Part shown: in pieces, positions 20,508 through 48,883 of the stretch | How positions within the stretch are numbered: position 1 is the stretch's first letter | How the letters are laid out: every line of letters starts with the position of its first letter | Source: Halichondria panicea | Taxonomy: Eukaryota > Porifera > Demospongiae > Suberitida > Halichondriidae | DNA: 64,000 nucleotides | Reading direction: 5' to 3' | NCBI RefSeq assembly: GCF_963675165.1 | Contig: NC_087384.1 | Coordinates: 3,114,315-3,178,314 of the forward strand | Position numbers and translations under genes: made by a program | The notes under the pieces: generated by a model | Told to the model about the DNA's origin: nothing | What the model saw: the letters and a program-made list of their open reading frames with translations, nothing else | Databases searched by the model: none

Positions 20508-20516
20508 CTAGAAACA
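20508..20516. repeat. Left target site duplication of the 9-kb MULE
   Basis: CTAGAAACA directly precedes the left terminal inverted repeat and is repeated exactly at 29555-29563 directly after the right one. Nine bases is the target duplication size typical of Mutator-like elements. Confidence 0.93.
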
Positions 20517-20650
20517 ACAAGTGGCTAAATGCAGTACGTTAGCCTGTGTAGAAAGGGTTAAAATGACCATGAATCTCATTATAATTGCACTGTAGCTAGC
20601 CTAGGGGGCGGCTAATAATAATTATAATGTGTCGCGCAGTCCAGCGAGTC
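20517..20650 (+). repeat. Left TIR of the MULE
   Basis: Inverted match to 29420-29554. The identical core includes GTTAGCCTGTGTAGAAAGGG and TAGCCTAGGGGGCGGC. Two mismatches fall in the outer 101 bp; the inner part diverges around TAATAATTATAAT versus AAACGAATACGC and then re-aligns at CAGTCCAGCGAGTC. Confidence 0.9.
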
Positions 20651-21840
20651 TGGAGAGTCTGGAGAGTCTTAAGAGACTTGCGAGTCTGGCGAGTCCTGAG
20701 AGTCTGGAGAGTCTGGAGAGTCTAGCGAGCCCTGAGAGTCTTGAGAGTCTGGATGGAGTCTGGAGAGCCCTGAGAGCCCTGAGAGTCTAGCGAGTCCTGA
20801 GAGACTGGAGAGTCTGGAGAGTCTAGCGAGCCCTGAGAGTCTGGAGAGTCCTGCGAGTCTGGCGAGTCCTGAGAGTCTGGAGAGTCTGGAGAGTCTAGCG
20901 AGCCCTGAGAGTCTTGAGAGTCCTGAGAGTCTGGATGGAGTCTGGAGAGCCCTGAGAGTCTTGAGAGTCCTGAGAGTCTAGCGAGTCCTGAGAGACTGGA
21001 GAGTCTTGAGAGTCCTGAGAGTCTAGCGAGTCCTGAGAGACTGGAGAGTCTGGAGAGTCCTGAGAGTCTGGAGAGTCTAGCGAGCCCTGAGAGTCTTGAG
21101 AGTCCTGAGAGTCTGGAGAGTCTGGAGAGTCTGGAGTCTAGCGAGCCCTGAGAGTCTGGAGAGTCTTGAGAGTCCTGAGAGTCTAGAGAGTCTGGAGAGT
21201 GTAGCGAGCCCTGAGAGTCTGGAGAGTCTTGAGAGTCCTGAGAGTCTAGCGAGTCCTGAGAGACTGGAGAGTCTTGAGAGTCCTGAAAGTCTAGCGAGTC
21301 ACGAGAGTCTGGAGAGTCTGGAGAGTCTAGCGAGTCCGGAGAGTCTGACAAGTCCTGAGAGTCTGGCGAGTCCTAAGAGTCCTGAGAGTCTGGCGAGTCC
21401 TGAGAGTCTAGCGAGTCCTGAGAGTCTGGCGAGTCCGGAGAGTCCTGAGAGTCTGGCGAGTCCTGAGAGTCTGGAGTCTAGCGAGCCCTGAGAGTCTGGA
21501 GAGTCTTGAGAGTCCTGAGAGTCTAGCGAGTCCTGAGAGACTGGAGAGTCTGGAGAGTCCTTGAGAGTTTGGGAGTCTGGAGAGTCGGAGAGTCCAGGGA
21601 GTCCTGAGAGTCCTGAGAGTCTGGAGAGTCTGGAGAGTCTAGCGAGTCCGGAGAGTCTGGCGAGTCCTGAGAGTCTGGCGAGTCCTAAGAGTCTGGCGAG
21701 TCCGGAGAGTCTGGAGAGTCTAGCGAGTCTGGAGAGTCTAGCGAGTCCGGAGAGTCCTGAGAGTCCGGAGAGTCTAGCGAGTCCTGAGAGTCCTGAGAGT
21801 CTGGTAAGTCCTAGATAATGATGAGAGTCCAGAGAGTTTA
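20640..21840. repeat. Left subterminal 9-bp tandem array
   Basis: About 1.2 kb of variants of GAGTCTGGA (GAGTCCTGA, GAGTCTAGC, GAGTCCGGA) with a 9-bp period, purine-rich on this strand. Because nine is a multiple of three, the array stays open in several frames and gives spurious Ser/Glu or Asp-Ser-Pro/Gln repeat proteins. The same repeat occurs in reverse orientation at the other end of the element. Confidence 0.9.
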
Positions 21841-21988
21841 GCGTGTTCTGAAAGTCTAGAGCCTGCTATAGTGTTCTCTATAGAGTAGAGTACTATGAAT
21901 TCTAATCATCACAAGCACATAATAATTTCATAATAAATGGTTTTGATCAGAAAAGATATATTATTATTTTTTTTCAGACATGTATTTA

Positions 21989-24672
21989 CTATGTACAAAG
22001 GTTACAGAGAAAAGAGTTTTCGTTTACAGGTCTCCCACACAAAGTGTGGAGCCACAGATTGCACTTCGAACATTGAGCCCAATGAACTCGATCAGATGTA
22101 CCATATTGCCTGTCATCTTCTTTGTAGCAAACAACACATACATTAATGTCCACTTTAGACAGATTTTCTTTACAGTTAGCCATAGCAGCAACTGACGGTT
22201 TAGCAATCCCTGTATGTCGCGGCCTCTTGTTCTTTATTGACTGGAATCTGATTTGAGTTTCATTAAGCGCATTAGGTGAAGAACGGCTTTTGATTGGTAA
22301 GGTGGGATGCTCTTTCCTTGTTTCATATGCCTTAAGAACATTAATACCGCTTTTGATATGCTCAGTGACACTTCGAACTGCATCATTACTGTCAGAAGAT
22401 GTGAGTAGAGTGTGCAACTGGTGCAAATGATCAAATGCACTTTTCTTCAGCATATCAATTTGACCTCCAGCATTGGAGAGGATGGTACTTAAGTGTGTAG
22501 GATCATTAATGAGGGAAATAGCTTTTTGTCTCGATTCCTCAGTGCTTATTTCAGGAGAAATGTCTGAGCCTGATGAATCATCTATAGAATTAGAAATCTC
22601 TGACCTATCCGTTTTGTCTGAAGCTGTAGTTAAAGAATGACTTTCAGTGGCTGAGTCTGCACTTGTTGCATTGTTCGTGGATTTGGCCAGAAAGCATGTA
22701 GCATGGATGTGTTTACATATTGTAGTATGTACAACCGAGTCAACACATGAACAATTGTACATGTGGATGCATACATCACATGCTGCGCACCTCAGTTTGC
22801 AAGAGAAAGGACAGGACTGATTCTCCAAATGAACAGTGTACATTCTTCCGGAGGTTGTCTGAGAACTTATCTTCCATTCTTTGTTTGAAATCGATTGGAG
22901 ATGACAGCCTTCAGAAATCATCTTAGAACTTTCTTTGTGCCTTCGATTTATTTCATTAATACGATAAGTTGTTTTCCCTTTATGAACTTTTTGTACTTGT
23001 TCAAAGGCCTTATTACGAGCAAGCTTCAAAAGAATATGTATAAGTTGATCAAGTCGTCGATTCTTCTTTCCTTCTAGATACACAATTTTCAGTACTCGAT
23101 GAAAAGATTCCAAATACATGTTTGTGTTCACAAACTTGCCTATTCTGTAACAGGTTGCCCACTCTTCCACCCTTGGCGTGTAATTTCTTTGAAAGTAAGA
23201 GCAAAATTGTGGGTGACAATTTGATAGAAAAGATACAAATTTTTGCAACAAACTTCGGAATTTGTCAGGTTGCAGTTCTGTCAGTAAAGTTCTCAAATGG
23301 TGATATACGTCAATTCGATTTTCATTGAGGGGAATACGCTCCTTAAGAGCTTTTCTCCAAGCACGATCTACGTGCCAGGCACACAGCAGTTTTGTGGTGT
23401 TGATACTGCTGTACGCAGCTGTCCAAGCACTCCAGTACTGCGTCGCATCATCTGACATGAACACTTGTGTGGAAAGGGGACCAGTTCTTTTCCTCAATTC
23501 TAGGAAAAAATAGGCCAGCATACAAGTGTCTTCTCGTGTAGTTATAGCCCACGCAACTGGAATTCCTTCCCCAAAATCGTCAACTACCATAACAGTTACC
23601 AGCAGGTATTCGTAATAATTAGTTGAATGGGTGGCATCTACACAAATTACATTTCCTCCAAAAGCTTTCATCATCTCGAGCTGAAACTGGGTTTGAAGTG
23701 CCAACAAAAAATCGTTGTCTTTCACTCCTTCTCTTTCACTAGACACCCCTTGCGGTTTGAAAGCAATAACTGGACAAAATTCCATGCTTTTCAGCTCTTC
23801 GACCCATGCAGCAACACTTGTGTAGTCGTTTGAGTGCTTTTGTACTCCATCCACATTGCACACTCTTTTGATATTCTGGATATCTTTTTTTGTGCTATGA
23901 TGACACCGTTTCAGGCCACCTTCATCGACACTGTCTCTAATGTCATCTAGAATTCGATCTATCGTCACCCCTTGCAACAGTTTGTTGGATACAGCTAGCT
24001 TGAAGTCCTTAGGGAGTCGTAAATGCATTACATCTTCTTCTGGAGTGTGGCCATAATGCGTGGAACAAAAGTTAACCAGCACATTTCCTCCTGTGTGCTG
24101 ACTTACAATTAGGTGAGCTGTACAGTAGACACCTAATTTTTCCGAGCCCTGCAACTTCGAATTTCTGAGGCCTTTTGTGGTTGATCTAGATTTTCCTGAT
24201 CTGTTACAATAGTAGTACCAAGTACGTACTCCACAGCGGACACGGGATCCACACGGCTGCACATACTGTGTGTAGGTTCGAGTTTCTTCACCCTCCTTCC
24301 ATCTTAAAAACTCTGAAAAGCCAGAAAACTCGTGTTTCTCTGTACAAACAGTTGTTTCGTGAGCTTGTGTTAGATGTTGGATCAACTCTTGCACGGAACG
24401 AAATCTGTAAGAAAGAAACTAATAATAATGTGGAAGTTGCAGTTGCATGATCTGGTAATCATGTGCCATTAAGTATTCAATCGATCTAACCTGGAGTCAC
24501 AAGTAATACAGCAGATATATCCAATTTCTGATGTTTCTTGTGAAGAGATTTCTTGGGTCAGATCTAGACTCTTCCCTAGAGCCTTTTCTCTGTGTTGCTT
24601 CCTTACATGTCGAGCTAGACTACTGCTGTGTGCATAACTGCTTGAGCAAGACTTGCAAATATAGAGCGACAT
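21989..24672 (-). CDS. MULE transposase (C2H2-DDE-SWIM-PHD)
   Basis: Two exons, 24491-24672 and 21989-24404, total 2598 nt, 865 residues. The N-terminus carries a C2H2 finger (YICKSCSSSYAHSSSLARHV, followed by RKQH). A second finger, C-x2-C-x12-H-x4-H, starts at CITCDSRFRSVQE and is split by the intron, which supports the splice model. The MULE DDE core has the first Asp in CVDATHSTNYYEYL (about residue 317), the second in FMSDDATQYW (about 380), a CAWHVDRAW C-x2-H step (402/405) and the Glu in NMYLESFHRVLK (about 493). A SWIM zinc motif C-x-C-x9-C-x-H follows (NCSCVDSVVHTTICKHIHA, about 612-626). The C-terminal 50 residues form a PHD-like finger (CVVCYKEDD, then CSKCNLWLHTLC and FLCNLC). It would cut and join the element ends. 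No stop or frameshift is seen, so it may be active. It diverges from the P-loop gene, 202 bp between start codons. Confidence 0.93.
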
Positions 24673-24874
24673 TGAGCCAAATCCAGAATATTATACACAG
24701 AGCAAACTATGATTTTGTTGAGACTTCTCCCGCTTGTTCAGGCTATTATAGACTGTAATTATGTACAGCGCATGCGCGTAACCAAGTATTAATTTCGCTG
24801 CGGCCTAATTGTTGTTCCAAAGAAGAACCAGTTCGAAGAACAAGCTCATCATTGTATCATTGTGCCATATAACC
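24673..24874. promoter_or_regulatory. Bidirectional promoter inside the MULE
   Basis: 202 bp between the transposase and P-loop gene start codons. It contains the perfect palindrome GCGCATGCGC at 24768-24777, the core of the NRF1-type recognition site often found at housekeeping and bidirectional promoters. Function is inferred. Confidence 0.55.
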
Positions 24875-27800
24875 ATGTGTGCATCACGAGAGACTGATGG
24901 AGACAGCAGTAGTATTTTCGGGGATTCTAATTCCACAAGCTCACAGGTGAGCATGCAGAGCTCACATTTCATTGCACATATTAATTGTTGAAGCCACATG
25001 CAGTTTGAGAAAATTCAGTTTAATTATTGTGCTGCATGTATATTCTTTCAGGATTCTGGAAAGGGAGAATTTTTTATTAATTGGGAACTCGGAACTGCTG
25101 GGAAATCAGCAAAAGGAGAAGATAAGGCCATGTGTGATTTTGCAGTCAGGCTGAAGACACTAGTGGAAGCGAGAGAATTGACTGGGTTTTACTGTGAAGT
25201 GAAACGCGAAATGGATGGTGTTAGCAGGTACATCTAACCCTCCCTCTAACTATATACAGTTAATTACAGCACATGTGACACACCTTGTAGCTTGTTAAGT
25301 GCATGGGTGTGCAATACCTCAATCTGTATAATATACTGCATACATCTTGTATGTATACATACTTTATCTTTGAGGGATTTGTATAATTATAGCTGGTATA
25401 CTGCATGGGTATTTCCATTTTCCATTATAGTGCAATAAAAATTATTAAAACATACTTTCCACTGACTTATAGCTCATGTGCCTATAAATGATATTAAAAA
25501 TGTAGAGTTTGGAACCCACAAATAAGTATAGTTGTGGTTCCAACAATAGGCTGAAGTTGTGACTGTGGGATATCTGATATCACTAGAGCATAGTTTTCTC
25601 ACATCATATTTCTACTGTCATGTGTGCAGAAAAATATTATTGTTTTAGAGCACATGCAGGACGTGCTACCAATGCAATATGCTACTAAACTGATCATTTG
25701 TTTCAAACATGCAGGAGATGTTTCTTCACAAGTGACTCTGCAAACCAGAAAGTAAAGTTCATCAGCCAGCTGAACAAGTCTTTTGGGAGCGGTGGTGGAT
25801 TCACTTGTGCTTTTTCAGACTCCGAACTCACCAGATTTCTCCAGTTTCTCAAACGAGAGCATGCTTCGGATATTAAGATCTCCAAGGGAACCACCGTTAT
25901 AGGATGCCAGCCTGGTAGCGATGTATGGGTGTTTGGTGATGACATCCATATCAAGTCTAACGGAGAGTGCATATCTGCAACGGAAAGTCCCTATGTGTGG
26001 TCACCCAATTGCATAATGGCACAGTGTGACAAAGTCAGCTTCAATGAGCTTGTGCCGAAACTTTCCATCCAAAGCAGCTCAATGGAACCTTTGAAGGATC
26101 TCCTCGACGGCCTACAGATAGCCACCAAGCACAATTATCCGCGTGCTCTCCTTGTTCTTGGTGGAACCATAATGTCTTGTCACTACACCCACATTGCTGC
26201 GAAGTATGGAGGATTTCCAATTGTGCTTGCTGTCGGACCAACTGAGACTGGCAAGTCAACTGCTCTAAAGGCTGCCCTGAGTATTTTTGGGATGGCCAAA
26301 GATGCCTTTTACGTTGAAGGTTCCAATGCTTATTTTATGGAAAGAAGTGCCCTCTCGTGTATGCCATATGGTATTGATGAGGCCACTGCACACAGCAAGC
26401 AGTTGGATGTTGTCAAGCTCATTGTTGACCTTCATGGAGCGGCTAAAACAGCCAATTTGCGTCGTGGTGCGTTTCTTCCACTGTCTGTACCTGTCATAGC
26501 AACCAATGACAAATTGAAGGATGATCCAAGGTGTGTACATAATTAGAATGTTATACACCACAATTTTCATATAATTATATACAGCTATATATACCTGCAC
26601 TTTAAACTTTAATCACAGAGTGAAGAGCAGATGTGTGGAAATTTCCTTCCGAAGGCCAAAAGTTGGTCCCTCTACCGTTGAGGAAAGAAAGTCGAGACGT
26701 GACTTAGAGAGTTCAATCATTAATGGAACGCCTTCTGGCATTCTTCACTGGGTGATTTCTCTAAGACAAGACCTCGAAAGAGATGGAGAGGCAGAGGTGG
26801 AGAGGATTTTGCAGCAGATCCTTCAGCTGCCTCAGTTTAGTGAACAACCCAGACTAGCGCAAAGCTGGGCTCTTATTCTTTACTTTACATTCAAGGTAAG
26901 TTTATTAATTAGTGCGCATTTGTTGATTGTTATTGAACCATACATGAAATCAAGATGGTACGTGCCTGTGGGAAGGATGAGCTGGAGAATGAAATAATGG
27001 CGTGTGTAACTCTAAATAGCACTGCAACTGAGGAAGGTACTGACAAAACTAGTTCTCTTGAAAGTGTTGTGACTGACACAGTCAGGGAAGTGCTTGAGTA
27101 CTGCAATGGAAAAGTCATAAGACAGGTAATAATACTGTTAGTAATTGAGTGTGCTGTGGTGATACCTAATTCCACTTGCATGGTTTCTGTTTACTTAATT
27201 AAAGGTGTTTCTAACCACTCATAGTGGTGCTCTGAATGGCTTGCACTCTTACATAATAATATGCATACACTGTAACATACATATATATATACAGGTACTC
27301 ACCTTTGTCAGAACAAGGTTGATGGTAAGCAACCAAGAAGTTGTGGCAATCCATCTTTCTCACAACGGGCTGAAATTTACTCATTCCCTTGATGAAATTA
27401 GAAATGCTGTCGACCAACTGGAGTGGGGGAAAGGCACGGACAGCAAAGATTTCCTGAATCCTACCAAACATAGTGGGACGTTAATAAATAGGAAAACAAG
27501 TGATCGCGTAAGAGCTGCCAACATCTTTCTTAACAAACTTCCTAAAAATCTTCACGATGTACTTAGAAGGGGTAAGTTTGTCTTTACCTATTTTGTTTAT
27601 AGTATCAGTGTCACAGAATAAACATTGTGTACACATGCAGTGACCGACCCTGAGACTCCATTGGCTGAAGTAATTAAGTGTGGGCTGGAAGTGGCTGAAA
27701 AAACTCCATGCAGTGAGGAAGAGGAAAACAGTGGGTCAGGCTTAACTACTGAAACAGAAGCTGTCGATGGGGACAAGAAACATGCTACTGTAACAACATC

Positions 27801-27930
27801 ACTGACTGAAACAGACGGTACATCTACTGATGGATCTGTCGATGATGGGGACAAGAAACGTGCTACAAGATCCTCGACTATTGTGCCTCCTTTTTCCAAA
27901 AGACTTTGCAAGGGGAACAATATTTACTAA
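24875..27930 (+). CDS. MULE-borne P-loop NTPase of unknown function
   Basis: Seven exons: 24875-24946, 25052-25227, 25715-26530, 26619-26895, 26955-27125, 27295-27571, 27641-27930; 2079 nt, 692 residues. I do not recognise the family. A Walker A loop, AVGPTETGKSTALKAALSIF, sits at about residues 254-273; GIDEAT about 45 residues later may be the Walker B acidic pair, and PLSVPVIATND further on looks like a sensor-1 strand (Asn after hydrophobics). This layout resembles AAA-like or D5/DUF927-type helicase-associated ATPases, but the link is tentative. The N-terminal ~80 residues are polar; the C-terminal ~100 are acidic, Thr/Ser-rich and end KRLCKGNNIY. All frames and splice sites are intact. 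Position, divergent arrangement and inclusion between the TIRs say it belongs to the transposon, perhaps aiding transposition or gap repair of a 9-kb element. Confidence 0.85.
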
Positions 27931-28063
27931 CAATACTGGTTGAATATTATTCAGTGCGCTAAATTATATATAAGTGCACAAAATGTGTTGTTTTGTTATA
28001 ATCAATCTGTTGTCGTTACGTTCTACCATGCATGCATTGAATTGACAAATTTAATTATAAGAC

Positions 28064-29430
28064 TAACTCGACTCAGCAGACTCGCTAGACTCTCCAGACT
28101 CTCCAGACTCTCCGGACTCTCCAGACTCTCCAGACTCTCAGGACTCTCCAGACTCTCCGGACTCACTAGACTCTCCAGACTCTCGGGACTCTCGGGACTC
28201 TCAGGACTCGCTAGACTCGCAGGACTATAGCTAGACTCGCAGGACTCTCAAGACTCTCCAGACTCGCAGGACTCTCCAGACTCTCTAGACTCGCAGGACT
28301 CTCAGGACACTCAGGGCTCTCCGGACTCTCAGGACTCCCAGACTCTCAGGACTCTCAGGACTTGCCAGACTCTCAGGACTCTCCAGACTCGCAGGACTCT
28401 CAGGACTCGCCAGACTCGCCAGACTCTCAGGGCTCTCCAGACTCGCCAGACTCTCAGGACTTGCCAGACTCGCAGGACTCTCCAGACTCTCAGGACTCTC
28501 AGGGCTCTCCAGACTCTCCGGACTCTCCGGACTCGCTAGCCTCGATCCCAGGCCGAGTTTTCGCTTTTATAACGGTTAGGCAAACAACTGGTTGTTCGCC
28601 TAACCGTTATAAAAGCGAAAACTCGGCCTGGGATCGAGGCTACGGACTCGCCAGACTCTCCAGACTCCCAGGGCTCTCCAGACTCTCAGGACTCTCAAGA
28701 CTCTCCAGACTCTCAGGACTCGCTAGACTCTCCAGACTCTCGGGACTCTCAGGACTCTCAGGACTCGCTAGACTCTCTGGACTATAGCTAGACTCGCAGG
28801 ACTCTCCAGACTCGCAGGACTCTCAGGACACTCAGGGCTCTCCGGACTCTCAGGACTCCCAGACTCTCAGGACTCTCAGGACTCGCTAGACTCTCCGGAC
28901 TATAGCTAGACTCGCAGGACTCTCCAGACTCGCAGGACTCTCAGGACACTCAGGGCTCTCCGGACTCTCAGGACTCCCAGACTCTCAGGACTCTCAGGAC
29001 TTGCCAGACTCTCAGGACTCTCCAGACTCGCAGGACTCTCAGGACTCGCCAGACTCTCCAGACTCCCAGGGCTCTCCAGACTCGCCAGACTCTCAGGACT
29101 TGCCAGACTCGCAGGACTCTCCAGACTCTCAGGACTCTCAGGGCTCTCCAGACTCTCCGGACTCTCCGGACTCGCCAGACTCTCCAGACTCCCAGGGCTC
29201 TCCAGACTCTCAGGAATCTCCAGACTCTCCAGACTCTCAGGACTCGCTAGACTCTCCAGACTCTCAGGACTCGCCAGACTCTCAGGACTCTCCGGACTCT
29301 CCAGACTCCCAGGACTCTCAGGGCTCTCCGGACTCTCCAGATTCTCCAGACTCGCAGGACTCGCAGGACTTGCAGGACTCTCCAGACTCCCAGGACTCCT
29401 CAGGGCTCCTCAGGGCCAGGACTCGCTGGA
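28064..29430. repeat. Right subterminal 9-bp tandem array
   Basis: About 1.37 kb of CTCCAGACT / CTCAGGACT / CTCGCCAGA variants, the reverse complement of the left array. It has higher-order structure: a block of about 115 bp beginning ACTATAGCTAGACTCGCAGG recurs near 28224, 28780 and 28900. Sequence from about 28362 is repeated at an offset of 639 bp from 29001, with a foldback element inserted in the first copy only. Confidence 0.9.
28537..28642. mobile_element. 106-bp foldback MITE inside the MULE array
   Basis: An almost perfect palindrome, TAGCCTCGATCCCAGGCC...GGCCTGGGATCGAGGCTA, with a 2-bp centre and one mismatch near it. It is flanked by CGGACTCGC at 28528-28536 and 28643-28651. The duplicate of this region at 29167-29175 has a single CGGACTCGC and no insertion, so element plus a 9-bp target duplication explain the difference exactly (115 bp; offset falls from 639 to 524). 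Confidence 0.88.
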
Positions 29431-29453
29431 CTGTGCGACACAGCGTATTCGTT

Positions 29454-29554
29454 TATTAGCCGCCCCCTAGGCTAGCTACGGTGCAATTATAATGAGATTC
29501 ACGGTCATTTTAACCCTTTCTACACAGGCTAACGTACTGCATTTAGCCACTTGT
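29454..29554 (-). repeat. Right TIR of the MULE
   Basis: Reverse complement of 20517-20617 with two differences (A/G at offset 53 and T/C at offset 74). Ends in TTTAGCCACTTGT, immediately before the target duplication. Confidence 0.92.
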
Positions 29555-29563
29555 CTAGAAACA
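29555..29563. repeat. Right target site duplication of the 9-kb MULE
   Basis: CTAGAAACA, identical to 20508-20516. Confidence 0.93.
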
Positions 29564-34382: not shown

Positions 34383-36215
34383 CTACACTAGTGTATAGGT
34401 GATTAGGTGTGTTGGGTAAGCCATGTCTAGCTTGTATACAACGAATATGTCACTACCACCGCTATGATGAGCACTGACAGAATCGTAGCGTTTGTGTGAG
34501 CCTGGTTTAAGTGGTGGCATCGTAAGTGATTTGTCCTCTTTGTCCATCAAGCAGGTTTCACCAGTTAGAACAGAAGCGAGAAAAATTTGTTTGTGACCAT
34601 TCTGGTCTTTGTAACTGAAATGATTTGAAAAACTAGCTTTTACAGCAAAATACGCTCCCTTTCCCCACAGTCCACCATCAGAGAACCGAAAGTCAAACCC
34701 TTCATCCGATTCATAGATCTTCACTGGTGGTGTTTTAAGACTACCATGGAACAACTTTTTTTCATTTAAAGGTTTGCCCTTCTCTTGCATTTTTTGCATT
34801 CTATGAGCATATTCGTCGTAGATATTCTTATTTTCAATCCTGTCGATGGAGATAAGAGTTGCCTGTGGCATTGTGGCATGAAATAAACAATCAATGTCAT
34901 TCCATTCTTCACTTGATCGATATACTTCTGATTTAAAAACGTTAGGGGTCAAAGCCCATGTAGGGGGATATTGAATGCATTTGGCATTGGTTTGCACACT
35001 GACAGGGATTTGAGTGCTGGTTATTGGCCTAGTCGCCGTAGTGGCTTGGCTGTCCTTAGGTGGCATCAGCCGTGTCAGCAGTGACACTCTTTTACATGAT
35101 TTTTTATGAAAGTTTATGCTAGCTCTCTTGGCAGCTTCTGGATCACTGAAGTTGATGTATGCGTGAGGTGGGTCACCATTAGTAACAACATGCAGAGATG
35201 TAATTTCACCATATGGACAAAACAAAAGGCATAACTTTTCCTTGTTTAGCTGCCCATTCAACATGCTAACCTTAACGGTTTTAGGTTCTGGGGAGGTTTG
35301 CACACTGACAGGGATTTGAGTGCTGGTTATTGGCCTAGTCATCCTAGTGGCTTGGCTGTCCTTAGGTGGCATCAGTCGTGTTAGGAGTGACATTCCGTTA
35401 CTACACGATTGCTTATGAACTTTTATGCTAGCTCTCTTGGCAGCGTCTGGGTCATTGAAATCGACGTATGCGTGAGGTGGGTCACCACCAGTAACAATAT
35501 GCAGAGATGTAATTTCACCATATGGACAAAACAAAAGGCGTAACTCTTCCTTGTTTAGCTGTCCATTGATCATACTAACTTTAACGGTTTTAGGGTCTGG
35601 AGAGGTTTGCACAGGGATTTGAGTGGTTATTGGCCTATTTATCCTAGTGGCTTGGCTGTCTTTAGGTGGCATCAGCCGTGTCAGGAGTGACACTCCATTA
35701 TGAACTTGACACGATTCTTTGTGAAAGTTTATACTAGCTCTCTTGGCAGCGTCTGGATCATTGAAGTTGATGTATGCGTGAGGTGGGTCACCATCAGTAG
35801 CAACATACAGATATATAATATCACCGTATTGACAAAACAAAAGGCGTAACTCTTCCTTGTTTAGTTGTCCATTGATCATGCTAACTTTAACTGTGTTAGG
35901 TTCTGGGGTGATGAGAGAGGTTTGCACAGGGATTTGAGTGCTGTCTATTGGCCCTGAGTGCCTATACACCTGAATACGAAATCCTTCAACTTTCTGATTT
36001 CTATCCCTGTATGCAGCAGAAGCTGCTTCACTTGTTTTGAAGGTGACATAGGTACCATGACTGAGAGTTGTTTGATGAGGATTGAAATACGGTTGTGAAA
36101 TGCGAAATACATCACCAAATCGAGAAAAGTGTTGTCGCAAGTCGTCTGACTTTATATTTTCGAACATCAAAACCTTGATAGATCTACAGTTAGAATAGTG
36201 AGGCGGAGTCGCCAT
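34383..36215 (-). CDS. RRM-PARP mono-ADP-ribosyltransferase, four RRM units
   Basis: Single uninterrupted frame of 610 residues starting MATPPHYSNC. RRM-like domains lie at about 13-88, 106-180, 209-283 and 312-384; the last three are near-copies of one unit that begins VKVSMINGQLNKEELRLLF and ends LTRLMPPKDSQAT, with IPVQTS linkers. A PARP catalytic domain spans about 420-610: His490 in KKLFHGS, Tyr522 in GKGAYFAVKASFS, and isoleucine 590 (SDIFVVY) where PARP1 has the catalytic Glu. The H-Y-I triad predicts mono-ADP-ribosylation, as in vertebrate PARP10/14. Substrate is unknown; RRMs suggest RNA or nucleoprotein targets. The N-terminus and catalytic region are nearly the same as the paralogue at 40.6-41.8 kb. 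Absence of introns in coding sequence could reflect retroposition or the family norm; the WWE-PARP below has one intron. Confidence 0.9.
   Translation of the reverse strand: MATPPHYSNCRSIKVLMFENIKSDDLRQHFSRFGDVFRISQPYFNPHQTTLSHGTYVTFKTSEAASAAYRDRNQKVEGFRIQVYRHSGPIDSTQIPVQTSLITPEPNTVKVSMINGQLNKEELRLLFCQYGDIIYLYVATDGDPPHAYINFNDPDAAKRASINFHKESCQVHNGVSLLTRLMPPKDSQATRINRPITTQIPVQTSPDPKTVKVSMINGQLNKEELRLLFCPYGEITSLHIVTGGDPPHAYVDFNDPDAAKRASIKVHKQSCSNGMSLLTRLMPPKDSQATRMTRPITSTQIPVSVQTSPEPKTVKVSMLNGQLNKEKLCLLFCPYGEITSLHVVTNGDPPHAYINFSDPEAAKRASINFHKKSCKRVSLLTRLMPPKDSQATTATRPITSTQIPVSVQTNAKCIQYPPTWALTPNVFKSEVYRSSEEWNDIDCLFHATMPQATLISIDRIENKNIYDEYAHRMQKMQEKGKPLNEKKLFHGSLKTPPVKIYESDEGFDFRFSDGGLWGKGAYFAVKASFSNHFSYKDQNGHKQIFLASVLTGETCLMDKEDKSLTMPPLKPGSHKRYDSVSAHHSGGSDIFVVYKLDMAYPTHLITYTLV
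34985..35940 (-). repeat. Three tandem RRM-coding units (~310 bp each)
   Basis: Within the PARP frame, three consecutive blocks carry TTAACGGTTTTAGG / TTAACTGTGTTAGG, then CTTCCTTGTTTAGCTG, then GGTGGGTCACCA, then GGCATCAGCCGTG in the same order and spacing. The 401-aa paralogue has just one such block, so the unit has been amplified (or lost) in frame. Confidence 0.85.
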
Positions 36216-36585
36216 AATCTTAAAATCAGGAACACTCTGAACTAGATGTGCTGAACTTCTTAGGCATGATTCAGCAAAAAATACGAATTGTATTCACGTC
36301 CCATCGTCCCATGACCATAATACATAGGAGGGCGGAACCAACTGACTGTATAGTTAATTCATAATGGTATTATAATTAAGGTCACGCAGTAGGCTGTGAA
36401 ATAAAGCAACTCCAGAATGTCTATTTTAAGTATAAAGGTCATCTTTAAATCGGACAAGATTATAGGATTATAGACTCGCTAGACAGCCATTATAATAACA
36501 GGGCATGCATAATTATTGGTTACCGGAAAAGACAAACTGTTCAAGACAGAGAAATATTAGACTAAGACAATCACCACTTTTAATA
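36216..36585. other. Intergenic 5' of PARP copy 1
   Basis: Presumed 5' UTR and promoter. The first ~85 bp share patches with the region upstream of the paralogue (CATAATC, TATGATTCAGCAAA-like blocks), showing that the duplication extended past the start codon. No other gene seen. Confidence 0.4.
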
Positions 36586-40640: not shown

Positions 40641-41846
40641 CTACGGCAGTGTATAGGTGATTAGGTGTGTTGGGTAAGCCATGTCTAGCTTGTATATAAC
40701 GAATATGTCACTACCACCGCTATGATGAGCACTGACAGAATCGTAGCGTTTGTTTGAGCCTGGTTTAAGTGGTGGCATCGTAAGTGATTTGTCCTCCTTG
40801 TCTATCCAGCATGTCTCACCAGTTAGAACAGAAGCGAGAAAAATTTGTTTGTGACCATTCTGGTCTTTGTAACTGAAATGATTTGAAAAACTAGCTTTTA
40901 CAGCAAAATACGCTCCCTTTCCCCACAGTCCACCATCAGAGAACCGAAAGTCAAACCCTTCATCCGATTCATAGATCTTCACTGGTGGTGTTTTAAGACT
41001 ACCATGGAACAGCTTCTTTTCGTTTAAAGGTTTGCCTTTCTTTTGCATTTTTTTCATTGTATGTGCATATTCGTCATACATAGTCTTATTTTCAATCCTG
41101 TCGATGGAAATAAGAGCTGCTTGTGGCATTGTGGCATGAAATAAATAATCAATGTCATTCCATTCTTCACTTGATCGATATACTTCTGATTTAAAAACGT
41201 TAGGGGTCAAAGCCCATGTAGGGGGATATTGAATGCATTTGGCATCTGGTAATGTTCGAAGAGCAGCTGCAGGTACTATTCGTGGAGCAGCCATTCTAGT
41301 GGCCTGGCTGTGTAGGCGTGCCAAGAGTAACACTCCACTATGTATTTTATTATGAAGTTTTATGCTAGCTCTCTTGGCAGCGTCTGGATCAATGAAGTTG
41401 ATGTATGCGTAAGGTGGGTTACCATCAGTAACAACACGCAGAGACATAATTTCACCATATGGATGAAACAAAAGGCGTAACTCTTCCTTGTTTAGCTGTC
41501 CACTCATCATGCTAACTTTAACGGTGTTAGGTTCTGGGGTGATGAGAGAGGTTTGCACAGGGATTTGAGTGCTGTCTATTGGCCCTGAGTGCCTATACAC
41601 ATGAATAAGAAATCCTTCAACTTTCTGATTTCTATCCCTGTATGCAGCAGAAGCTGCTTCACTTGTTTTGAAGGTGACATAGGTGCCATGACTGAGAGTT
41701 GTTTGCTGAGGATTGAAATACGGTTGTGAAATGCAAAATACCTCACCAAATCGAGAAAAGTGTTGTCGCAAGTAGTCTGATTTTATATTTCCAAACATCA
41801 AAACCTTGATAGATCTACAGTCAGAATAGTGAGGCAGAGTTGCCAT
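40641..41846 (-). CDS. RRM-PARP mono-ADP-ribosyltransferase, two RRM units
   Basis: Single open frame of 401 residues starting MATLPHYSDC, a close paralogue of the 610-aa protein at 34.4-36.2 kb. RRM-like domains at about 13-88 and 106-175; after the second, a short linker VPAAALRTLP replaces two further RRM units. The PARP catalytic domain (about 210-401) keeps His281 (KKLFHGS), Tyr313 (GKGAYFA) and isoleucine 381 (SDIFVIY), again H-Y-I and so predicted mono-ADP-ribosyltransferase. The catalytic half differs from the paralogue at few positions, whereas the RRM2 block is more diverged, consistent with a recent local duplication or gene conversion of the 3' half. No intron in the coding sequence; no disabling mutation. 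Confidence 0.9.
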   Translation of the reverse strand: MATLPHYSDCRSIKVLMFGNIKSDYLRQHFSRFGEVFCISQPYFNPQQTTLSHGTYVTFKTSEAASAAYRDRNQKVEGFLIHVYRHSGPIDSTQIPVQTSLITPEPNTVKVSMMSGQLNKEELRLLFHPYGEIMSLRVVTDGNPPYAYINFIDPDAAKRASIKLHNKIHSGVLLLARLHSQATRMAAPRIVPAAALRTLPDAKCIQYPPTWALTPNVFKSEVYRSSEEWNDIDYLFHATMPQAALISIDRIENKTMYDEYAHTMKKMQKKGKPLNEKKLFHGSLKTPPVKIYESDEGFDFRFSDGGLWGKGAYFAVKASFSNHFSYKDQNGHKQIFLASVLTGETCWIDKEDKSLTMPPLKPGSNKRYDSVSAHHSGGSDIFVIYKLDMAYPTHLITYTLP

Positions 41847-43611
41847 AATCCTGATTCAGAACTCTATAATAATGTATAATTATACTGTACTGTGTAGCTG
41901 GCTTGGAATAACTTCTTTGGTATGATTCAGCAAATTCTCGAAATATGAATACTTCAGAATAGTATTCATATCTATCTATCTGTCCCATGGCCATATATAG
42001 ATCTAGACGTGACATTGTCATATCAGGAGTACATGAATATTCATGTACTCCTGGTAATACTGCTACACTTACCATTTGAATGGCTGCCCTATTGGCAGTA
42101 AAGTGCATGAAATACGTAGCGAAATTCACAAAGTTAATCCCTCGAAAATGACCAGCTAGGTGAGTATCACCGTGTGGTACTAAGTAAATAGTCAGTAAGT
42201 CACATACATACATACTGTACATACATGTTAGAACACCTAATGTGGTCCACGAGTAGAGGAGGTTTGCCACGCGTCATCATACACGTGACATTCCTAACGT
42301 TTTCTGCTCACGTTATCGTAGATACTGAACAACTGTAAAAGTTATGGCTATCTTGCTTTACTGAGTGTCAGAATGGAGGGAATCTCTGGAGATCGGGTTG
42401 GTTAATGAAAGCTCTATATTCGAAGTAGCCAAATTAAGAGTCATGCACATAATGCTAGGCATACCTTATAATTGTTATGTAAGCTACTACAGAGATATAT
42501 ATGAGCATGTACTCCTCGTGTTACTGATAATGTAATTATTACCGTGTACGTAGCACTTAATGTTCGAGGTGTTTAATTTTCGCTGTTTTCAAGGGTTATA
42601 GTAATCGGTCATGAAAATTGTTCCACAAACATATTATATACATGTACATGTAGTAACGGCGGATGCAATGTGCACTGACATACTGCATAGCGCGAATTAT
42701 TTAACGAAACAGCAATTCCACGAAATAACCGTGGCCCTTACCTTGAATCTAATGACTAATTTTGCGGGTTCTTGTCTCGAGGATAATGATTGAAGGATAA
42801 TGAATCATTCTGCTCTCTATTTAAGGATAATCCAACTACACGCAAAACGTCATATCCAGCCATAATAAACATTGAAAACCTAGTTTAGGGCAGCCAGCAC
42901 TGGCCAGTATACGGAATAGCGAGTGGTCATGCAGTAAACATCTAGCTAGCAATCCGTGCCAAACCAAATGGCCGGTATATCGAGGTGGCCCTACTTCAGA
43001 GAGCAATAGCGAGAGTCTACTGTTATGATGAATCACTATACCACATACTTCTTCTAAATAAGGCGCCGCTTTTTTAATAATTACGCTTTCGAGGCAGTGT
43101 ATGCAAAAGCAAGAAATAGCCAATGAATTTATATGGTGCCTTATGGGAGAAATATCCAGGTGGCGCCTTATTAGAAGGGGGCGTCTTCTCACTAATCCAG
43201 CTCTCTGATTTACGGTCACCTTGCTATTCCGACAATATTTTTTGAATGGCGCATAATACGGCCGGACCCGACATTATGGGCGTGGTTTTTGCAAATAAGA
43301 GAGCATGATGATTCATTATCCTCGAGACAGAATCGCTAAATGAGCTATTGGGTTGAGGCTACCTAGACTAACGAGAGTCCACTGCATGTATACATGTACT
43401 TGTGAATATACAGGCATCCATCTAAAGAATGGTAAGACAGTATGACCACCTCAAGTCATACAATGGTTATCTTTTGTTGTACAATATTGTCATGAATCAG
43501 CAAATGTCCTATCACAAAAGGATTCATAACTACAATTCCTAGAAAGAAAAATAAACCCTATCAAATACATGTATATCTCACGATTTTCCATAACAACCAC
43601 ACCAGTTCCAA
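41847..43611. other. Intergenic with TIR element and palindromes
   Basis: Contains a perfect 30-bp palindrome centred in ATGAATATTCAT at 42024-42053. A TIR element of about 555 bp lies at roughly 42773-43327: left arm TCTCGAGGATAATGA, right arm TCATTATCCTCGAGA, with a GCTCTCTATTT / AATAAGAGAGC inner match. No supported coding exon. Confidence 0.55.
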
Positions 43612-45959: not shown

Positions 45960-48883
45960 ATGGCCTCTAGAGCTAGAGGCAGACGTAGTGCTAGTGCAGG
46001 CTACAGGTAAAATAATAATTTATGTAGACTCTGTACCCCATGTAGAGATCTGTTTAATAGCTGTATAAAGCAAGCGTGTTAATTTTGGATAATCCTGATT
46101 TTATTCTATATAGGCATTCAGTCGAACAAGCCAGAACATATCGAAAACCAACATATGGAGTGAAAGTGAGTAACATTCCGTCAAACTATCTGACAACATC
46201 ACTCCAAGATCTGTTTTGCACGTGTGGGAGTTGCGATGTAGTACTTGGGGACAGCAGCATATCTGCAAAGTTTCAATCGCAGCACTATTATGCATACGTC
46301 AATTTTGATTCTCTTGAGAATGCTAGGCTAGCTGTGTCGAAATTGAATGGCCATCTCGTCAATGGAAGTACTCTCAGCGTGAAAATTCAGGGATCTGGAT
46401 CTGCAGTCGTCAGTAATGGTCAACCCTCAAGCATTGCTACTACTATCTCAACGGTTTGTACTGTAAAGGTCACCAACATCTCAAAGATCGTCACTGAGAG
46501 TAACCTTAGGGAGATATTCAGTTTTTCCAACAGTGTTCCATTAGCTAGTGTAAAGCTGAACCAAATATCATCAAATTCACACAATTTTGCCTACGTTAAC
46601 TACCACAGCCATGTTGATGCTGACAGAGCAGTCATTGAGCTTAATGGGTGTTCTACGAAATGTGGTTCAAAGCTCCAGGTGAAGCATCACAGACAATCTG
46701 CCATACAGCCTCCTGTGACCACTGAAGCTGCTGTAGGTGGTACTGTGAGTCAATGCACAGTCAAGGTGTTGATAACACAAGGATCAACATCTTCGAGTGA
46801 GTTATACAGTTATTTCACCAACTTTGGTGAATTAAAGGATGAGCCAAAAATCAGACAAGGTGATCCAAACTTTGCCTATATTAACTTTAAGTCGGAAAAC
46901 AGTGCAATGAATGTTGCTCAATATCCTAGTCATGAAATCGGACCTGGTGTTACAGTCAAAATCCGCCTATCGAAAACTTCTTCTAGTCAACCAGTGATGG
47001 CAGTCACAGTCCCACCACGTGTACATGCTCCATTGTTTGTACCAAAGCATATCCCTTGCAATGCAGTCATTTCCAGTATTTTGACATCTTCTGTTGAGTA
47101 TGCTCAGTACAGGAACTCTATAGCACCAGTTTCTTTGATCTGTGATAAAAATGGTGATGGTGTTGTGCTTTTTGGGGAAAGTGTGAATCTACCTTCAGCC
47201 GAATCTGTCATCACGTCTCTTATTGAAAAACTACAACGTCAGCTTAATGATAAGGTGTTGGAGCTACCTTGCATGTATGTACCTGCCTTCTCAAACCCAG
47301 CATTAGTGAGCAGCCTTGCCGAAATTGAGCAAAATTGTATGGTACAGCTTCAGGTACAATATGGATCTACATGTACGAAGGATGTTAAGTCCTTTTCAAC
47401 CATGGTTTCTAGCAAGTTAGTAAGTCACGCAGCAGCTGCTGAAGTATCTTCTTTCGGTATAGCACTTTATCAAAAAAAATCAACTAGTGGTGCGAGTAAC
47501 CCGCCAGTCTCCTATGTTTGGTCTTGGAAAGATGATCACCATGTTTACACACAGTATGACTCAGTGTCTTCCACTAAGATTAGTGAGCATTATAATTCTT
47601 CACCACAAGGTTCACTACATCTGACCATAGTGACCAAACTCGGTTCCACCTCTTACGTAGTGGATTTTGCAACCATGAAGCAAACAAATCTAGAGACTGG
47701 TCACATTCGAAAGATCAAAAAATCATCTTTAGAGAATCCAGACTCTCTGACTTGGTTCTACGAAGATGATTCCAAAAAAATGGCTCCTTATTCAGCCTCA
47801 GAATGTGTGCAAATTGAAGAGATGTATCTTTCCAGCAAACCGTCTGACCTTGTGATCAATGGTAAAGTGTACACATTTGATTTTACAACGCTGAAACAGA
47901 TCAACAAAAACACCTTATATGAACGCAAGATCGAACGGAATGCTCCTCACCTTAAGCCCATGAAAGAATCGTTTTTCAATTTACAAATCGAAGGCTTGCA
48001 ACAAAATATCGTCATAGCAGAGAAAATGCTTAAAGAGGAATTAGACAAAGCTGTTGTCGAAAAAATTCATGTGTTACCAACAACCACAGACAATGCTTTT
48101 CAAACCGAGGTAATGACCACTCTTCAGAAGTACTTTGTGTTAGCAAGCGTTGTTGGAGACACTGTTCAAGTACGAGGCGTACAAGGATATGTAGAAAAAG
48201 TGATGCTGATAGTACGGGAGAAAACACTGGATTTCGAAAAGGAATGCTTAGCTCGAGCATCATCTACCCCACATAGTGCGTCTGTGCCAAGCAACTGGGA
48301 GGTACAGACAGACAAGTTTGCTCTGAAAGAAGTACTTCATTCCAGTTCAGAGTGGACTGAAATTGAAAACAGATTCCACAAAACCCTGCCAAGCACAGGT
48401 ATTGTCTCGATTAAACGAATTCAAAACAAGTGGCTGTGGGATCGATACTCATTTGCTAAGCAACGCATGTCTGAAAGAAATGCTGGTATTGTCAACGAGC
48501 AAATGCTCTTCCATGGAACACGAGAAACTCCCCCAGAAAAAATCTACAATTCTGAGCAAGGGTTCGATTTTCGTTTTTCTACGAAAGGAATGTGGGGAAC
48601 AGGAACGTATTTTGCTATCAATGCTAGCTATTCTCAAAGCTATTCCTATTCCACTATTCAAGGAAAACAGATGATACTAGCATCCGTTTTGACAGGTGAA
48701 ACATATCGGTGCCCTCCAGATGGTTCTCTCAAGAAACCTCCAATTAAGCCACGCAAACATGGCAGTTTTGAGGATGAGCTTTTCGACAGTGTCAGTGGAC
48801 AAACGAAAGGGAGTGATGTGTTCATTATTTACGACCATGAAAAAGCATATCCGTACTACCTGATTACATTCAACAGATACTGA
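45960..48883 (+). CDS. RRM-WWE-PARP mono-ADP-ribosyltransferase (PARP14/10-like)
   Basis: Two exons, 45960-46006 and 46114-48883, 2817 nt, 938 residues. The short first exon (MASRARGRRSASAGY) was added because its AG|GTAAAA donor joins in phase to TAG|GCATTC and provides an ATG. Three RRM-like domains follow (about 29-110, starting YGVKVSNIPSNYL; 125-210, TVKVTNISKIV; 225-305, TVKVLITQGS). A middle region without clear homology leads to two WWE-like domains (VWSWKDDHHVYTQYDS, about 485-550; LTWFYEDDSKKMAPYSASEC, about 560-625), which in other proteins bind poly- or iso-ADP-ribose. The PARP catalytic domain closes the protein: His816 (QMLFHGT), Tyr848 (GTGTYFA) and Val918 (SDVFIIY) in the third triad place, predicting mono-ADP-ribosylation. 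Related to, but well diverged from, the two RRM-PARPs on the left. Confidence 0.9.

Follow-up and report, generated by a model that had tools for sequence, protein, structure and literature searches.

A Mutator-type element with inverted minisatellite arms and a putative ATPase gene in the sponge Halichondria panicea

Architecture of the element and its transposase gene

The window analyzed here is a 64,000-nucleotide stretch of Halichondria panicea contig NC_087384.1 (positions 3,114,315 to 3,178,314, forward strand; assembly GCF_963675165.1). An element of 9,038 bp occupies window positions 20517–29554 and is flanked by two exact copies of CTAGAAACA, identical at 9/9 positions (Table 1); 2,000,000 random pairs of 9-mers within the window gave 38 such agreements. 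The left and right ends are inverted copies of each other, measuring 102 bp with two mismatches. An earlier note on this DNA had described inverted ends of at least 101 bp with two mismatches, an exact 9-bp target duplication, and two open multi-exon genes, and all three descriptions hold: both frames are open, and every predicted intron is GT-AG, including that of the transposase, whose coordinates agree with those in the note. The two genes are divergent, with 202 bp separating their start codons, and are sited between two arrays of 9-bp repeats that the earlier note did not mention; nor did that note say what kind of protein the second gene encodes. The arrays lie just inside the terminal repeats, are mutually inverted, and flank the genes on either side in each of the seven copies of the element described below, where they span 1,167–1,398 bp on the left and 1,117–1,355 bp on the right by a looser measure than that of Table 1. 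The right array of the window element also contains a 100-bp near-perfect palindrome, found among the seven copies only here and in copy C2a. This palindrome is a nested MITE-like insertion and a marker of the lineage with an open transposase.

Table 1 Features of the element in the window (positions are those of the window).
Feature	Position	Strand	Remarks
Left target-site duplication CTAGAAACA	20508–20516		9 bp
Left terminal inverted repeat	20517–20618	+	102 bp, 2 mismatches to right repeat
Left minisatellite array, 9-bp units, commonest GAGTCTGGA	20646–21837	+	
Transposase exon 2: MULE/DDE domain, SWIM-like motif, PHD-like finger	21989–24404	-	
Transposase intron	24405–24490	-	86 bp, GT-AG, predicted
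Transposase exon 1, codes for first C2H2-like finger	24491–24672	-	
Start-to-start gap of the divergent genes, presumed shared promoter region	24673–24874		202 bp; promoter role inferred
Gene 2 (putative P-loop ATPase) exon 1	24875–24946	+	
Gene 2 exon 2	25052–25227	+	
Gene 2 exon 3: Walker A GPTETGKST, Walker B-like DE, ATN	25715–26530	+	
Gene 2 exon 4	26619–26895	+	
Gene 2 exon 5	26955–27125	+	
Gene 2 exon 6	27295–27571	+	
Gene 2 exon 7, including stop	27641–27930	+	
Right minisatellite array, unit of left array inverted	28077–29398	-	
Nested palindrome (MITE-like) within right array	28540–28639		100 bp; 2/7 copies (window, C2a)
Right terminal inverted repeat	29453–29554	-	102 bp
Right target-site duplication CTAGAAACA	29555–29563		9 bp

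Gene 1, on the minus strand, has two predicted exons and encodes a transposase of 865 residues. Its Pfam matches include the MULE domain PF10551 (E = 3e-11, 44.1 bits against a cut-off of 27.6) and the ZSWIM1-3 RNaseH-like domain (E = 1.1e-10, above cut-off). Residues D317, D379, and E493, with a CxxH motif between them at residues 402–405, fit what we take, by eye, to be the DDE triad. At the N-terminus are two C2H2-like fingers, for which a fragment matched zf-C2H2_4 below the Pfam cut-off (E = 1e-5). The earlier note had given DDE-SWIM transposases as known of the Mutator-like family; here the SWIM-like feature is a CxC...CxH spacing read by eye at residue 612, in a fragment that had no Pfam match. 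Residues 817–864 display the C4HC3 spacing of a PHD-like finger. On a 59-residue fragment Pfam PHD scored 19.9 bits (E = 7.4e-4), under its cut-off of 24, and was outscored by Znf_SCAND3, likewise under cut-off; the whole 865-residue protein had no PHD match at E values up to 1. The protein had no NCBIfam match, the exon 2 frame returned nothing in the PDB sequence search, and no relatives of the transposase were seen in the viral contigs or prokaryote genomes scanned.

Elsewhere in the window lie PARP-family genes at 34386–36293 (RRM and PARP domains) and 46061–48880 (RRM, WWE, and PARP domains), and the first residues of 40644–41855 are nearly those of the 34386–36293 gene. The three may form a local PARP cluster, and PARP genes with RRM and WWE domains would suit an animal genome. 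Inside the RRM-PARP open frame, a 306-bp unit is present in three tandem copies (34989–35908).

Copies in the assembly and two transposase lineages

The family was searched for with 193 bases of the left end against the 131.5-Mb assembly (39 contigs), and all counts are lower bounds. The search gave 292 matches, those listed being mostly matches to the arrays, and at least 16 places reach the terminal repeat, namely seven pairs of ends and the single loci C12 and C16. The earlier note had suggested looking for the same ends, paired, at other loci, with their absence counting against its reading, and comparing the target duplications. At least six further paired copies were found, bringing the copies with both ends to at least seven: the window element (on C8), C7a, C2a, C10, C9, C2b, and C7b, with lengths of 7.6 to 13.7 kb. 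Terminal inverted repeats of ~102 bp are present in 7/7. The target duplication is an exact 9 bp in five of the seven (window, C2a, C9, C2b, and C7b), and all five sequences differ from each other. Copy C10 has a flush 8-bp duplication, and copy C7a has no flush duplication, with ACTGTGTAT and ACTGTGTGT near its ends. No similarity was found between the flanks of any two of the seven copies (175–284 bp per side). Since assemblers can in principle err in repeat arrays, the arrangement might be an assembly artefact; we find this scarcely credible given that the order of the parts is constant at seven loci, the duplications are distinct where present, and the flanks are unrelated. On these same grounds both misassembly and segmental duplication were rejected as the origin of the copies.

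Two of the places that reach the terminal repeat differ from the paired copies. At C12, a left end of 85% identity is accompanied by some repeats and 196 bp at 71% similarity, and neither protein was matched in the 10 kb examined. C16 (L017 5033–5099) is an extreme internal-deletion derivative of 67 bp in which nothing but the two inverted ends is left, flanked by a flush duplication of 8 bp, GAAAATGA.

Two of the seven copies, the window element and C2a, have an open transposase frame; they differ by 8 substitutions in 6,198 bp. In four others (C10, C2b, C7a, and C9), the same two changes, a loss of 11 bp and a gain of 4 bp, break the frame in transposase exon 2; these four differ pairwise by 5–8 substitutions in about 6.1 kb (0.08–0.13%). 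Between the two groups there are 28–38 substitutions (0.45–0.63%), and C7b differs from every other copy by 27–34 substitutions in 4.9–5.0 kb (0.54–0.69%), gaps not being counted in any of these comparisons. Gene 2 was found in all seven copies and is open in five: the window element, C7a, C2a, C9, and C2b. In C10 the beginning of gene 2 exon 3 is missing; in C7b about 1.15 kb of transposase sequence is missing, and gene 2 is interrupted by a gap and a stop. With broken copies included and indels excluded, codon changes number 10 synonymous and 15 nonsynonymous in the transposase, and 7 and 9, one of the nine being a stop, in gene 2. Neither gene shows a significant excess of synonymous changes (p about 0.13 each, from few differences), and in so young a family a gene without function might still be largely undamaged.

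Several copies carry insertions of their own. C7a and C9 share an insertion of ~440 bp in transposase exon 2, 97% identical between the two and bounded by 16-bp exact inverted ends, which is absent from the other five copies. C9 (C9:2860200-2874260) has a further 4.16-kb insertion in a transposase exon, rich in short tandem repeats and flanked by the 8-bp repeat TCTACACA; judged by the length of its duplication, this insertion may be hAT-like.

The flanks of C9, C2b, and C10 are unrelated, and each of the three has a duplication of its own; the simplest reading is therefore that the transposase-dead lineage moved after it was broken, with transposase supplied by intact copies. Gene conversion is the main alternative to such movement in trans. 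During gap repair, MULEs can copy sequence from one element to another. The copies are very similar, and C7a lacks a flush duplication, so the breaks common to C10, C2b, C7a, and C9 might reflect gene conversion or segmental duplication. Yet the four copies also have clade substitutions in common in both genes (seven in the transposase and two in gene 2), and C9, C2b, and C10 each have their own target duplication. Segmental duplication, moreover, would leave similarity in the 175–284 bp examined per side, and the dissimilarity of the flanks led us to lower slightly the odds of this explanation, which we now rate as improbable, although part of the shared breaks could stem from conversion. Two copies with an open transposase and a close, transposase-dead set at unrelated sites make up a natural experiment on supply in trans.

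The second gene and a proposed mechanism

Gene 2, on the plus strand, spans 24875–27930 and has seven predicted exons that encode an open frame of 692 residues. Reading by eye, we find GPTETGKST at residue 257, IDE at 303–305, and VPVIATND at 341, in this order, and we take this P-loop and its downstream motifs to resemble those of AAA+ or SF3 helicases. The strongest profile matches are to the primase/helicase family phrog_8841 (E = 1.8e-4 with exon 3, 5.8e-4 with the whole protein) and the primase family phrog_1139 (E = 0.0017, over the 227 residues 242–468). The exon 3 frame matches DUF927 with E = 0.0063 (16.6 bits, under the cut-off of 22.6), on par with the generic AAA_27 (E = 0.0057), and the whole protein matches DUF927 with E = 0.035 (14.2 bits), also under cut-off. 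No match reached any Pfam or NCBIfam cut-off; the best and sole NCBIfam match is a type II secretion ATPase (E = 0.089). No relatives of exon 3 were seen in the viral contigs or prokaryote genomes scanned, and its PDB sequence search was empty. A tblastn search of phages with exon 3 returned 8 of 50,697 records, with a best E value of 0.09, which is not significant. Four of the eight, from two phages each represented twice, are annotated as toprim/primase or as DUF927 primase/helicase, and the other four, the best-scoring among them, are hypothetical. A match of a gene 2 fragment to Contactin-5 in the PDB (E = 1.6) was taken to be due to chance, and an AlphaFold model of exon 3 alone (pLDDT 39) was set aside.

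These indications mostly point one way, to a putative P-loop ATPase with weak similarity to phage primase/helicases and to DUF927. The DUF927 protein Cch of staphylococcal elements is itself described, in the part of the source drawn on here, as a predicted distant homologue of a replication-initiator helicase (PMC7581432). Weak profile matches to the mobile-element replicative helicases of the DUF927/Cch and D5 types fall over the ATPase core of gene 2, which differs from them in having no match above cut-off, in being spliced, and in adjoining a DDE transposase.

Gene 2 may be a passenger, that is, a gene of the host, or one acquired in another way, that the MULE has captured and that has no role in transposition, a reading that we hold to be possible but somewhat doubtful. 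MULEs are known to capture host gene fragments, and the entries consulted in the MULE table of the same publication include no ATPase (PMC6446971). The seven exons of gene 2, the loss of its frame in two of the seven copies, and the lack of significance of its purifying signal are also in line with capture. Gene 2, however, is a whole gene, not a fragment; its start codon is separate from that of the transposase, 202 bp away, and it occurs in 7/7 copies, including the transposase-dead lineage, where it is open in three of four. Because it is complete, present in every copy, and endowed with helicase-like motifs, a gene of the element is somewhat more likely than a passenger.

Our leading guess is that gene 2, as an element gene, would assist the element's DNA while it transposes or is repaired, for instance through unwinding of the long arms, which are self-complementary. 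A more specific proposal, that gene 2 is a mobile-element-type AAA+ helicase adopted by an animal DDE transposon and needed to open or replicate kilobase-long self-complementary arms, strikes us as quite unlikely as a whole. In bacteria, some transposons combine a DDE transposase with an ATPase, and if the AAA+ helicase reading were true, the sponge element would be a eukaryotic parallel built from different parts. Among the titles and abstract openings of the open-licence papers listed by our literature searches, we found no description of a transposase paired with an ATPase or helicase in MULEs. If gene 2 is a helicase that works for the element, it would add a new type of partner to those of eukaryotic DDE transposases.

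Together, the copies are best explained as a MULE DNA transposon family of recent origin, with autonomous and non-autonomous members and foldback-type arms, a reading that we consider likely. Transposition may proceed as follows. First, the zinc fingers of the transposase would bind the element ends, and the DDE core would then cut the element out. The excised element would be joined to a target site opened by cuts staggered by 9 bp. The window element and other intact copies would also supply the transposase that moves the transposase-dead lineage in trans, and gene 2 might act as an ATP-driven DNA-unwinding helper for arms able to fold on themselves.

Relation to known Mutator-type elements

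MULEs are recognized by a MULE/DDE domain, a target duplication of 8–11 bp, usually 9 bp, and terminal inverted repeats. The sponge family has PF10551, duplications of 9 bp in five copies and of 8 bp in C10, and ends of ~102 bp in 7/7 copies. The earlier note's view of a complete Mutator-like element is borne out by the paired ends, the duplication, and the MULE domain above cut-off, and its view of a recent insertion agrees with the few substitutions that separate the window element from C2a. It had further called the element possibly still mobile, with which the two open frames are consistent. We describe the window element as a complete, recently inserted, and possibly still mobile Mutator-type transposon. 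MuDR of maize also has a second gene beside its transposase; its genes are convergent, unlike the divergent pair described here.

The earlier note's view that complete animal MULEs are uncommon is not supported in the form given: an arthropod survey counts 322 distinct complete MULEs from 222 species (PMC13359780). What looks uncommon in the sponge element is not completeness, it is the long foldback minisatellite arms and the ATPase gene, and its interest lies more in the arms, the second gene, and the dead-but-mobile sister lineage than in its completeness. Second ORFs are listed in the table of PMC6446971 for Mutyl, where it is MutB, and for MULE-Co, where it is 'unknown'; neither entry describes an ATPase, in contrast to the putative one here.

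Tm1 of the root-knot nematodes (Meloidogyne), a MULE of the Phantom type, combines foldback repeats with 9-bp duplications (PMC3169594). As in the sponge family, its composite inverted ends consist of many short tandem units, its transposase has a MULE domain, and it has non-autonomous relatives. The Tm1 units are about 14 bp long, its transposase is a 496-residue, Phantom-type protein with a FLYWCH-like finger, and the sections of the Tm1 description used here do not mention an ATPase gene (PMC3169594). Placement in the Phantom group would be favored by the combination of foldback repeats and 9-bp duplications in Tm1 (PMC3169594) and by aphid Phantom elements with a minisatellite after the transposase ORF, as tabulated in PMC6446971. 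The Phantom criterion given there is a FLYWCH finger before the MULE domain, SWIM or none being also allowed (PMC6446971). The sponge transposase, however, had no FLYWCH match at E values up to 1 over its 865 residues, nor was FLYWCH among the matches listed (25 of 31 families) for its N-terminal fragment. C2H2-like and PHD-like fingers are found instead, all below cut-off. A Phantom affiliation is thus unlikely, and a position near Rehavkus is preferred.

Rehavkus elements, in the entries of PMC6446971 consulted, have a 9-bp duplication, inverted ends of 26–400 bp, a PHD finger, and a minisatellite before the 3' inverted end; Rehavkus-1_TC of Tribolium is described as 9.5 kb long, its inverted termini containing a 164-bp satellite (PMC10218199). 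The sponge family resembles them in its 9-bp duplication, in ends of ~102 bp that fall within this range, and in a minisatellite by the 3' end, which here occurs at both ends in 7/7 copies. The Rehavkus PHD finger may have a counterpart in the PHD-like C4HC3 spacing, which scored below the Pfam cut-off. The differences are a 9-bp repeat unit, long arrays at both ends, N-terminal C2H2-like fingers, and two genes, intact or not, in 7/7 copies, against a single ORF in Rehavkus. Because the same entries give Rehavkus a single ORF and name arthropods and annelids as its only sources (PMC6446971), we call the element Rehavkus-like rather than a member. Placed by structure and by published descriptions, it comes closest to Rehavkus and Tm1, and its foldback design is nearest to that of the described Rehavkus elements.
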